A stretch of 64,000 nucleotides of DNA from assembly GCA_029213195.1 (NCBI GenBank), contig JARGNI010000003.1:62001-126000 (forward strand), in the 5' to 3' direction. The position numbers were made by a program, and so were the translations under genes. Under the pieces are notes generated by a model that searched no databases, was not told where the DNA came from, and worked only from the letters and a program-made list of their open reading frames with translations. The stretch is from Verrucomicrobiales bacterium. GTDB lineage: Bacteria; Verrucomicrobiota; Verrucomicrobiia; Verrucomicrobiales; DEV007. Below, one piece after another: positions 53,926 through 62,177 of this stretch; positions within the stretch are counted from its first letter, which is position 1; every line of letters begins with the position of its first letter.

Positions 53926-54396
53926 TCAGTGGCTGTGAAAGTCGGGCTCTTTGCCTTCGTAAGCACGGTAGAGATCGAAGATGGCCGTTTTGAGGGCCTC
54001 GGCCACTTCAGCGGAAGGATCCTGTTTTGCTTTCATCGCAGCACGCATCACATTGTGAGCGGCAATGAGAGCCTTCTCGTAGTTGTCGGCATCGGGCTTG
54101 ATCCGCTGGGCCATGAAATACTGGGCCACGGACTCCATCACTTTCTTGCAGTGATCTTCCTTCGTCATGATCCAGCGAGCGGCCTGGTTGGCATTCAGCG
54201 GGGTATTTTCCTGGATCAACTCCGCCATCTGCACGTTTGCCTTGGCAATCGTGGTTTGCGCTTCGAGAAGCTTCTCGAACTCGAGTTGGTCCGCGAAGAT
54301 TCCACAGGGAACCTGGCAGTGGGCCGATGCGTTTTGAACAGTGAATGCGGAAAGAACCGCAACAGCGAGGGTGGAAAAGAGCAGTTTGGTTTTCAT
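53926..54396 (-). CDS. sodN: Exported nickel superoxide dismutase
   Basis: A 156-residue precursor. The signal peptide (MKTKLLFSTLAVAVLSAFTV, ending NASA) is followed at once by HCQVPCGIF, the nickel hook HCxxPCGx(Y). Signal peptidase cleavage after ASA would free His26 as residue 1 and Cys27 as residue 2, which the known active site requires as nickel ligands with Cys6. The mature protein (131 aa) is a helical bundle (FEKLLEAQTTIAKANVQMAE, ARWIMTKEDHCKKVMESVAQ), slightly longer than Streptomyces SodN, and ends in FHSH. Residue 9 is Phe instead of the usual Tyr. No sodX peptidase gene is adjacent. A terminator follows and a cytochrome c gene precedes it. Confidence 0.88.
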   Translation of the reverse strand: MKTKLLFSTLAVAVLSAFTVQNASAHCQVPCGIFADQLEFEKLLEAQTTIAKANVQMAELIQENTPLNANQAARWIMTKEDHCKKVMESVAQYFMAQRIKPDADNYEKALIAAHNVMRAAMKAKQDPSAEVAEALKTAIFDLYRAYEGKEPDFHSH

Positions 54397-56742: not shown

Positions 56743-57798
56743 ATGTCCTTCACTCCGAATTTTCGCAAAGCCAAGCTGACCGCGATGTCCCTCGCCAAGG
56801 TCGGCAACCCGGTCAAGAACGAACCGCTCCAGACCTCGCAGACCCTCTGCCATTTCCAGGATGAGGAGGCGGAACTGCTGACTCACTGTTTCCTGAAGTC
56901 CTTCCGTTCGCTGGAGCTGCATCACCTCGATCACCACACCTCGGTGGAGAGCAATGAGCTCTTCGCCTATACCGCCGCCATCTTCGACGACAACGAATGC
57001 CTGCTCGAAAAAGGGGGGCAAATCGCGCGTCATCTCTACTCCCAGTCGAAACACCCCAATATCAAGTCGGGAGATCTCTGTGTCGCGCTGATCCAGGATA
57101 TCGGAATCGGAGGAGAGCCGACCCAGGCGATCAGCATCGTGAAATCGGAAAGCAAGGTGCCCTTTCTCCAGATCTCTGAGAAAGACGGAGATCTGGTCCT
57201 GACCACGGAACAGGGTATCTACCCCGACAAGATCGACAAAGGGTGTCTCATTCTGAATCACGGAAGAGCGGATGGGTTCTCCGTCTATCTCTTCGACAAG
57301 AGCGGAGGGAATACCCAGTTCTGGGTGCGTGAGTTTGTCGGGGCAAAACCGGTCAAGGATGATGATTTCCTGACCCGACGGTATTCGGAGCTCTGTGTCG
57401 AGTTTGCAGAGAAAGGCCTCCCCGAGGAAACCGCTTCCGAAGATCGCATGCAGGTCGCGAGTCGAGCCATGACCTATCTCAACGAGAACGACACCTTCGA
57501 ACTCGAAGAATTCGTATCGACCGCTCTCGAAGAACCCGAGCGGATCGAGCAATTCAAGAGCTTCAAGAACGACTTCGAAGAAGAACGAGGGGAAGAACTG
57601 GACGAGTCCTTCACCGTCTCGAAGAAAGAAGCGGAAAAAGCGGAGAATCGCCTCAAGAGTCGCATGAAACTGGATGTGGGAGTGACCATGCAGTTTTCGG
57701 CAGGCTTCATCCACGAGGCGGAGAGATTCCTCGAACGTGGTGTCGACGAGGAAAAGGGCATGCAGTTTGTGAAGATCTATTTTCACAAAGAAACCTGA
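56743..57798 (+). CDS. Nucleoid-associated protein, NdpA/YejK-like
   Basis: A 351-residue cytoplasmic protein resembling the 37-kDa nucleoid-associated NdpA family (PF04245 type). Supporting features are the family-like central stretch LCVALIQDIGIGGEPTQAIS, then IVKSESKVPFLQIS, the conserved DKGCLILNHGRADGFSVYLF core, and a C-terminal acidic helical region (ELEEFVSTALEEPERIEQFK). In E. coli YejK binds nucleoid DNA and topoisomerase IV. The match is by pattern recognition only. It is preceded by two alternative hairpins and stands between exported-protein genes, without an obvious operon partner. Confidence 0.65.
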   Translation: MSFTPNFRKAKLTAMSLAKVGNPVKNEPLQTSQTLCHFQDEEAELLTHCFLKSFRSLELHHLDHHTSVESNELFAYTAAIFDDNECLLEKGGQIARHLYSQSKHPNIKSGDLCVALIQDIGIGGEPTQAISIVKSESKVPFLQISEKDGDLVLTTEQGIYPDKIDKGCLILNHGRADGFSVYLFDKSGGNTQFWVREFVGAKPVKDDDFLTRRYSELCVEFAEKGLPEETASEDRMQVASRAMTYLNENDTFELEEFVSTALEEPERIEQFKSFKNDFEEERGEELDESFTVSKKEAEKAENRLKSRMKLDVGVTMQFSAGFIHEAERFLERGVDEEKGMQFVKIYFHKET

Positions 57799-57885
57799 TT
57801 GTCACCCGGCTCACTGAGATAGTCGAAACTCTGTGATTGTGCTACGACTGCCCATCCGCTACACTGAAAGCACTGTGGAGACCTC

Positions 57886-58452
57886 ATGATCCTGAAAAAA
57901 ATTACCGTGCGCGCCCGAGTCGTGCTCACGACTCTTGCCCTCGGTTTGGCGCTCCTGACCTCGTCCTGTGGTCTCATCGGAGCGACCGTTTCGACCGCCG
58001 TCGCCCTCGCTCCTCTCAAGCTCCTCTTTGCCTGTCTCCCCGAAGGAACCGAGATCGATCTCCCCGGAAGAGAAACCCAGCCGATCGAGGACCTGCGGTC
58101 GGGTGACGTGGTCATGGGATATGGTGGAAAGCCTGTCAAGATCACCCAGATCCACGGATACCTCGAGGATCCCGAAGAAACGGACTTCTACGAAATCACT
58201 TTCTCGAACGGAGCGTCCGTCGACCTCTGCGGGATGCATCGCATCGAGGACATCCGGGCACAGGATCTCAAAGTCGGATCCACTCTCCCGAGCGGACTTT
58301 CCGTGGTCGCGATGCAGACCTATCGAGGAGTCGAGCGTTCCTACGACATCCTCACCGAGGACAAAGGCTACCAGGTCGGTGGTGTTTCCGTAAACAGCAT
58401 GATCGAAGAGATGTATCGTACCGGTCGCCAGAACGACTTGCCCGGCGAATAG
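57886..58452 (+). CDS. Lipoprotein consisting of a compact Hint (intein-like) domain
   Basis: A 188-residue protein: signal with lipobox-like LLTSSC (Cys28), a second hydrophobic patch (ATVSTAVALAPLKLLFA), then a Hint domain from Cys50. Block A is CLPEGTEIDLPGRETQPIED with LRSGDVVMGY (Cys50 as nucleophile). Block B is NGASVDLCGMHRIED with His118 in place of the TxxH His. Block G is YDILTEDKGYQVGGVSVNS, ending Asn170-Ser171 like an intein splice junction but with Val instead of the penultimate His. There is no endonuclease and only 18 residues follow. Known Hint domains self-cleave or splice; here the product would be released from the membrane anchor. GGAG lies six bases before the ATG. Confidence 0.72.
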   Translation: MILKKITVRARVVLTTLALGLALLTSSCGLIGATVSTAVALAPLKLLFACLPEGTEIDLPGRETQPIEDLRSGDVVMGYGGKPVKITQIHGYLEDPEETDFYEITFSNGASVDLCGMHRIEDIRAQDLKVGSTLPSGLSVVAMQTYRGVERSYDILTEDKGYQVGGVSVNSMIEEMYRTGRQNDLPGE

Positions 58453-60892: not shown

Positions 60893-61393
60893 CTATTCGC
60901 CCTTGAGCTTGGCGAGGACCTTGTCCCGATCGTTCGTGACCATCGTGCCATCAGGATTGACGAGCACCATGTTGGGAATGTAGCCGGTCTTCCCGAGCTC
61001 GGCGAGATCCTTGACGTCTCCCATGTCCGCCTTGTTGACACATGGGAATGGAATACTCGAATCCATCAGATACTTCTCGACGCCGTCCTGGCTCCTGTCG
61101 TATCCGAACAGAACGATTTCGAATTTCCGATCTTTTCCTGCGTCCTTATAGAGCTGCACCAACTGTGCAGTTACAGGTTTGCAGCCGCCTCACCAGGAAG
61201 CCGAGTGATAGAGCACATAGAACTCCGGAGAGCCGGCGAGCGCGGCCTCAGCCACTTCACCGTCCTGAACCTGGATGATCTTGCCTTTGAGTTTCTCGGC
61301 GACCGCAGATTCCTCTGCCTGGATGCCGACCATTCCGAAAATGGCAGTGAGGAAACCCACTGCTGCCATTCTTCCTAACCGATTTTTTTTCAT
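60893..61393 (-). CDS. Exported thioredoxin-like selenoprotein with UxxC active site
   Basis: Read through one in-frame TGA (61192-61190), this is a 166-residue exported thioredoxin-like protein. The signal is KKNRLGRMAAVGFLTAIFGM, ending GIQA. Strand YVLYHSASW leads to the active site, where codon 68 is TGA: SASW-U-GGCKP (U68, C71), matching the SASWCGxC of nucleoredoxin/TlpA-like proteins. After it come the family's FEIVLFGYDRSQDGVEKYL, SIPFPCVNKAD and the cis-Pro strand GYIPNMVLVNPDGTM. Sequence on both sides of the TGA belongs to one fold, and TGA replaces exactly the redox Cys. The likely role is thiol-disulfide exchange in the periplasm. The alternative is a Cys-to-stop mutation making a pseudogene. 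selA/B/C are not in the window. Confidence 0.82.
61152..61186 (-). promoter_or_regulatory. Candidate bacterial SECIS hairpin after the TGA
   Basis: Starting three nt after the TGA, the mRNA can form a 7-bp lower stem (GGCUGCA with UGCAGCU, one G-U pair), an internal loop, and a 4-bp upper stem (CUGU/ACAG) closed by the loop AACUGC. The apical loop falls about 18-23 nt after the UGA, within the range of bacterial SECIS elements. The loop lacks the early G often seen in that consensus, so the match is partial. Confidence 0.5.
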
Positions 61394-61481
61394 CGCCCGA
61401 ACATGGTCAGAAAAGGCGGGAAAAGTAAATCTCGGATTGTCCACAATTCCGCAGGGCGTATCTTTCCGAATCCAGCCGAAA

Positions 61482-62177
61482 ATGAAGGCACTCATGAAAT
61501 CCCTACTCGCCGTTGTTCTCCTCCTCACCAGTCCTGCGCTGGCCTTCGATCCTGTCACCCGGGAGATGGAGGGCTGGACCATTCACATCGATCCCGCCCT
61601 GCTCTCCGATGATCCTCAGTCGGAAGAAAGCCGGTCTCTTCAGATGCTCCGGAATCATCTATTCTTCATCACAAACCTGATTCCCGAAGCCCGTCTCAAG
61701 GAGCTGAAAACCCTTGAAATCTGGATCGAGAAAGATCATCCGACGCTCAAGGCCATGCAATACCACCCCAGCCGCCAGTGGCTGGTCGACAACAAGCACG
61801 ATCCTCGTCTCGCGAAGAAGGTTCACATTCCCGTGGCGCGACAGCTCGTATCGAGGTCTCAGATCATGAAGCACCCCATGGTCGTGCTCCACGAACTGGC
61901 TCATGCCTACCATGATCAGATCCTCGGGTTCGACGATCCGAGAATCCTTTCCACTTTCCAAGCGGCCAAGGATTCAAAGAAATACCGAAGTGTCCTTCTC
62001 TACAACGGGCGTCGCGTCCTTCACTACGGGATGACGAATCACAAGGAGTATTTTGCCGAAGGCACCGAAGCCTTCTTCAACCGCAACGATTTCTATCCCT
62101 TCGTCCAGGCCGAGCTCAAGGAACACGACCCCAATCTCCACGCCCTTCTCGAGGAAATCTGGGGAAAGACTCCGTAG
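61482..62177 (+). CDS. Exported zinc metallopeptidase, HExxH type
   Basis: A 231-residue exported protein with signal MKSLLAVVLLLTSPALA (from ATG 61494; ATG 61482 is also in frame). The zinc site is VVLHELAHAYHDQILGF (H137, E138, H141), and NHKEYFAEGTEAFF some 50 residues later supplies the third ligand Glu, the gluzincin arrangement. The layout recalls small secreted metallopeptidases with an anthrax-lethal-factor-like fold; substrate unknown. It is divergent from the selenoprotein gene across about 88 bp, so the two may share control. Confidence 0.82.
   Translation: MKALMKSLLAVVLLLTSPALAFDPVTREMEGWTIHIDPALLSDDPQSEESRSLQMLRNHLFFITNLIPEARLKELKTLEIWIEKDHPTLKAMQYHPSRQWLVDNKHDPRLAKKVHIPVARQLVSRSQIMKHPMVVLHELAHAYHDQILGFDDPRILSTFQAAKDSKKYRSVLLYNGRRVLHYGMTNHKEYFAEGTEAFFNRNDFYPFVQAELKEHDPNLHALLEEIWGKTP

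Follow-up and report, generated by a model that had tools for sequence, protein, structure and literature searches.

Hint domains are known as inteins, as processors of toxins and as the maturases of Hedgehog proteins. The locus described here raises the question of what such a domain does when it makes up most of a small predicted lipoprotein, encoded in the window (the whole stretch of DNA that was analysed, 64,000 nucleotides) of a Verrucomicrobiales bacterium. The initial annotation had described the 188-residue product as a lipoprotein with little beyond a Hint domain, a description now borne out by fold, profile and conservation, and its placement of Cys50, His118 and Asn170-Ser171, with 18 residues after Asn170, is correct as given. 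The features of the gene are the following:

57877..57880, plus strand: putative ribosome-binding site GGAG, 5 bases upstream of the ATG (from the sequence)
57886..58452, plus strand: lipoprotein gene, 188 amino acids and a stop (open reading frame call; single copy in its 5.9-Mb genome)
57886..57966, plus strand: signal peptide, residues 1-27, with a charged start and hydrophobic core (from the sequence; same alignment in orthologues)
57958..57969, plus strand: lipobox T25-S-S-C28, with Cys28 the predicted lipid-bearing residue (invariant in 28 orthologues)
57967..58032, plus strand: hydrophobic linker, residues 28-49 (the matching phage segment is predicted to be helical)
58018..58020, plus strand: Lys45, 5 residues ahead of Cys50 (no change in the 72 host and phage copies)
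58033..58398, plus strand: Hint domain, residues 50-171 (Pfam, AlphaFold2, Foldseek and hhalign)
58033..58035, plus strand: Cys50, at position 1 of inteins, the nucleophile of block A (unchanged in all complete homologues)
58228..58239, plus strand: block B Cys115-x-x-His118, corresponding to intein Thr B:7 and His B:10 (His118 invariant)
58345..58347, plus strand: Asp154 in SYD of block F, intein position F:4 (invariant)
58393..58398, plus strand: Asn170-Ser171 (penultimate-His and terminal-Asn columns of the profile alignment)
58399..58449, plus strand: C-terminal tail, residues 172-188, a predicted helix (conservation and AlphaFold2)

The N-terminal part displays the signal peptide and lipobox Cys of a bacterial lipoprotein, both assigned by inspection of the sequence. 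A candidate lipid-bearing Cys is present in all 52 host loci that were read, with a standard lipobox in most of them; in the window's protein the residue at +2 of Cys28 is Gly, and Asp occurs at this place in none of the 52 orthologues. The distance from the lipid Cys to Cys50 takes one of five values in 50 of these 52 proteins, namely 22 (30 copies), 18 (10), 26 (5), 29 (3) or 14 (2) residues, with 15 and 17 making up the rest. These values lie near multiples of a helical turn, a pattern noticed post hoc (L037-L090) that suggests a linker helix with a fixed face. A scan for promoters and terminators at the gene found nothing.

From Cys50 onward the protein is a Hint domain. Taken singly, it scores 15.6 bits against Hint_2 (PF13403), under the curated cut-off of 28.4, and reaches only E 1e-3, below cut-off, against the Hint family PF01079. 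All 28 orthologues nonetheless match PF13403 at E<=1 (best 7.8e-9), and a profile of the 72-member family recovered solved inteins from the PDB at 1.5e-4 to 7e-3 and aligned with four bacterial Hints by hhalign at 1.1e-9. AlphaFold2, run on the 72-member alignment, returned a Hint fold with a mean pLDDT of 88, exceeding 90 across most of the Hint domain, low confidence being confined to the linker and the last residues. Foldseek searches of the PDB with this model gave 51 matches at E<=0.001, nearly all of them inteins, BIL domains or Hedgehog proteins, including BIL2 (E 1e-6, TM 0.66 by target), the BIL structure 2lwy, a DnaB class 3 intein (TM 0.78) and the Hedgehog structures 1at0 (E 1.5e-4) and 6tyy. 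Thus the structural check proposed in the initial annotation yielded the Hint horseshoe, and a phage member of the family, treated in the same way, gave the same fold. The block A Cys, block B His and block F motif of the superfamily are likewise present. A search of PHROGs gave nothing beyond weak terminase-intein matches. Matches to the AXH and PDZ families were judged to be due to chance, and identity with Peptidase_S74 was rejected, as a Hint fold was found instead and the 188-residue protein has no S74 match in Pfam.

Conservation was assessed over 72 copies, 51 from hosts and 21 from phages, in which Lys45, Cys50, His118, Asp154, Val169, Asn170, Ser171, Met172 and Ile173 are all invariant. 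Cys50, His118, Asp154 and Ser171 are moreover invariant in every complete homologue seen; outside the 72-copy set Asn170 is replaced by Asp in one phage copy (L093) and Lys45 is lost in a more distant one (L231). At position 115, the place of Thr B:7, Cys or Ser is found, and Gly in a single copy. The SMIEEM tail does not vary and is predicted to be helical in host and phage alike (Met172, Ile173 and Glu175 are constant in both, and Met176 in hosts), while the length from Val169 to the end varies, being mostly 11-21 residues. The collection scans used the C-terminal motifs VNSMIxEM and SYDLLT, which biases them toward conservation in these regions; in the 28 orthologues obtained by a whole-genome search with no motif requirement, Cys50, His118, Asn170 and Ser171 are also invariant. 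The homologue check of Cys50, His118 and Asn170 therefore came out in favour of the initial annotation in both sets.

In inteins the N-terminal step depends on Cys1, Thr B:7, His B:10 and Asp F:4, and the C-terminal step on His G:6 and Asn G:7 (PMC4031507). An ungapped hhalign alignment sets the ...GGVSVN170 segment against ...NGxxVH, so that Asn170 occupies the column of the penultimate His (G:6) and Ser171 that of the terminal Asn (G:7). The VHN of the C-terminal step is thereby replaced in register by VNS throughout the family. The initial annotation, which took Asn170 for the terminal Asn and Val for the penultimate residue, was off by one in this regard. Its preference for cleavage over full splicing is supported: apart from the Thr to Cys/Ser change the residues of the N-terminal step are kept, and those of the C-terminal step are altered family-wide.

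Of 75 genomes from the same family, DEV007, 29 carry an orthologue of the lipoprotein, as a single-copy gene; in the rest of the class few genomes have one. The GTDB collection yielded 54 loci, which bear the label Verrucomicrobiota almost throughout; one bin is labelled as Planctomycetota. A wide gap in E-value separates complete orthologues (below about 1e-59) from general Hints (above 1e-6). In one genome the orthologue is split across two contig ends bearing adapter-like peptides (L029 with L089; LSLIHI and GDVYKRQ), probably an assembly artefact. No conserved operon partner was found beyond local synteny with an NdpA-like gene, a leucyl-tRNA synthetase and SUF genes; these neighbours are housekeeping genes common to close relatives only. 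The gene directly upstream, at 56743-57798 on the plus strand, encodes a homologue of the 37-kDa nucleoid-associated protein (PF04245); seven close relatives carry it in synteny, at 75-83% identity. The window also encodes a nickel superoxide dismutase that bears a signal peptide (53926-54396, minus strand; PF09055, E 2.6e-26) and a predicted exported metallopeptidase-like protein with the motif HELAHAYHDQ (61275-62177, plus strand), for which family matches are weak only.

The close relatives that are not lipoproteins are confined to uncultured viral contigs, which are computed viral predictions, and there the domain sits at the C-terminal end of large proteins. In IMG/VR we recovered 38 loci in which the Hint domain forms the C-terminal end of proteins of 387-1262 residues, encoded next to genes for tail fibres, internal virion proteins or virion structural proteins; a terminase was found in 3 of 12 phage records, and the T7-type connector PF12236 gave no match in them, its control being silent too. 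The segment ahead of the Cys in these proteins resembles the linker of the lipoprotein. The subfamily is absent from 50,697 named phage records, where a phage Hint query had no match and only intein-like Hints occur, in four large-phage records; a search of plasmids likewise gave no Hint match. In a tree of host and phage Hint domains the copies cluster by host or phage, with several places mixed or unresolved. The best tree requires at least four changes of label but is still compatible with a single origin; it is unrooted and so sets no direction of transfer. Transfer of the module between Verrucomicrobiota and phages is likely.

The main finding beyond the initial annotation is that this domain, which we term VNSM-Hint, is an exchangeable C-terminal module of phage proteins. 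When only the N-terminal portion of one family of phage proteins served as the query, 80 loci were recovered, of which 7 end in a VNSM-Hint, 14 in an S74-like domain and 57 in neither, 2 being cut off; of the S74-like ends put to Pfam, one passed the S74 cut-off and another fell below it. In a second family of phage proteins the C-terminal slot holds a VNSM-Hint, a CFI-box-like Cys module or no module at all. Three of its loci (L229, L233, L234) end in a small module 'SIFCWVAREVYGEDNPKW...' in the slot held by the Hint in their siblings, and this module resembles CFI-box-CTERM (NF041770, E 0.001, below cut-off). After folding its trimer, S74 uses a Ser-Lys dyad to cut ahead of its own Ser, and then leaves (PMC8326128). 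The occupation of one slot by VNSM-Hint and S74 suggests, by analogy, a shared job in phage structural proteins. A partial look at the same bacterial family revealed no stand-alone mini-lipoproteins with a CFI-box or S74; its S74 proteins are mostly large, and those read include no bare-lipoprotein form. In the literature we found no paper that combines Hint, intramolecular chaperone and phage.

The established parts of our overall reading are the fold, homology, conservation, module exchange and distribution. On balance we favour, with some reserve, the view that the lipoprotein consists of a linker and a distinct autoprocessing subfamily of Hint domains that cuts before Cys50, a self-removing phage C-terminal module having been kept by bacteria in lipoprotein form. 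Retention of the N-terminal chemistry, replacement of the C-terminal step residues and the invariant helical tail together favour N-terminal cleavage alone. The lipoprotein would be exported and then lipidated at Cys28, after which the Hint domain would fold; an N-S acyl shift at Cys50, aided by Cys115, His118 and Asp154, would produce a thioester that is then hydrolysed or transferred. The products would be a peptide of some 22 residues held by the lipid anchor, with the linker (residues 28-49) as the part retained in the membrane, and a freed Hint domain; neither full splicing nor Asn cyclisation would be expected. In phages, where the domain terminates large structural proteins, it would probably act as a C-terminal module that removes itself. 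Here we infer cleavage and the position of the cut, what becomes of the products, localisation and the cellular role. A broader version is doubtful: that VNSM-Hint constitutes a new class of such phage modules, interchangeable with S74, and that the Verrucomicrobiota lipoprotein cuts itself off its anchor, or passes its lipopeptide to an acceptor, in a one-shot membrane event.

Certain features count against cleavage. Lys45 and the helical linker are conserved in nearly all copies, which would not be expected of an N-terminal segment that is passive or thrown away; the tail matches the active site in its conservation, so that the domain may have a further role; and the block B Thr is replaced by Cys or Ser. 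The conservation of Lys45, linker and tail, the altered C-terminal step residues and the lack of an operon partner pointing to a substrate would also suit a Hint fold that no longer cleaves. Such a domain would serve a structural or binding purpose at its lipid anchor, and its conserved residues would maintain the fold or bind a ligand. We consider this unlikely, given that Cys50, His118 and Asp154 show no drift in 72 copies spanning 35-70% identity, that position 115 is limited to Cys, Ser or Gly, as fits a polar helper, and that the phage slot alternates with a known self-cleaving module.

Less probable still is the initial proposal of intein- or BIL-like C-terminal cleavage at the Asn170-Ser171 bond, freeing an 18-residue peptide. 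Inteins may have Asn-Ser at the C-junction, several of them function without the penultimate His (PMC7664689) and the sole replacement of Asn170 is the Asp of L093; a one-residue register shift may make Asn170 the terminal residue. The ungapped alignment, however, places it one residue early, and the tail beyond it, variable in length, is invariant in sequence and helical in both host and phage, unlike a released extein. As a helical and invariant segment the tail looks integral to the domain, which leaves release of a C-terminal peptide less well supported. A Hedgehog-like transfer, in which an outside nucleophile takes the Cys50 thioester and the lipopeptide is joined covalently to a lipid, sugar or protein, agrees with the retention of N-terminal chemistry alone, as in the Hedgehog domain, which uses the first acyl shift only (PMC7664689), with an invariant tail that could position the nucleophile and with a linker that is a conserved hydrophobic segment, but is very improbable in view of the short tail and the lack of an identified acceptor or adduct-recognition region.

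A lipoprotein of little but a Hint domain, which many Verrucomicrobiota keep as a single-copy gene, would put the fold to a new use. The exchange of Hint and S74 makes it possible to ask experimentally if phages trim structural proteins by Hint chemistry during assembly, and if bacteria have taken over such a phage module.

With inteins and BIL domains VNSM-Hint shares the fold, the block A Cys, block B His and block F Asp, and the profile match to bacterial Hints. It differs from them in having VNS in register for VHN, a conserved C-terminal helix, no exteins to join and a setting in a lipoprotein or at a phage C-terminus. It departs from class 1 inteins in this motif and in the lack of a host protein around the domain. 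As regards BIL domains, which cleave at both ends and have a terminal Asn, the fold matches BIL2 and 2lwy, and the alignment displaces the terminal Asn by one residue. The Hog domain of Hedgehog is alike in fold (1at0 and 6tyy), in N-terminal chemistry only and in its C-terminal position, and in sequence gives a weak partial PF01079 match (E 1e-3 to 9e-6); in contrast to it, VNSM-Hint is bacterial and phage-borne and has no sterol or adduct recognition region in its last stretch, which starts at Val169 and is mostly 11-21 residues long. The PT-HINT domains of secreted polymorphic toxins and Neisseria MafB are also Hint folds in exported bacterial proteins, but the lipoprotein gene stands alone without a toxin or immunity partner, and the PT-HINT match is weak (5 of 28 orthologues, best 0.017). 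The Peptidase_S74 chaperone, finally, is unrelated in fold and chemistry, with a Ser-Lys dyad (SDRRLK) as against the Cys thioester of VNSM-Hint; yet it takes the same C-terminal slot in homologous phage proteins, and it cleaves itself before its own nucleophile and is released, much as VNSM-Hint would be.
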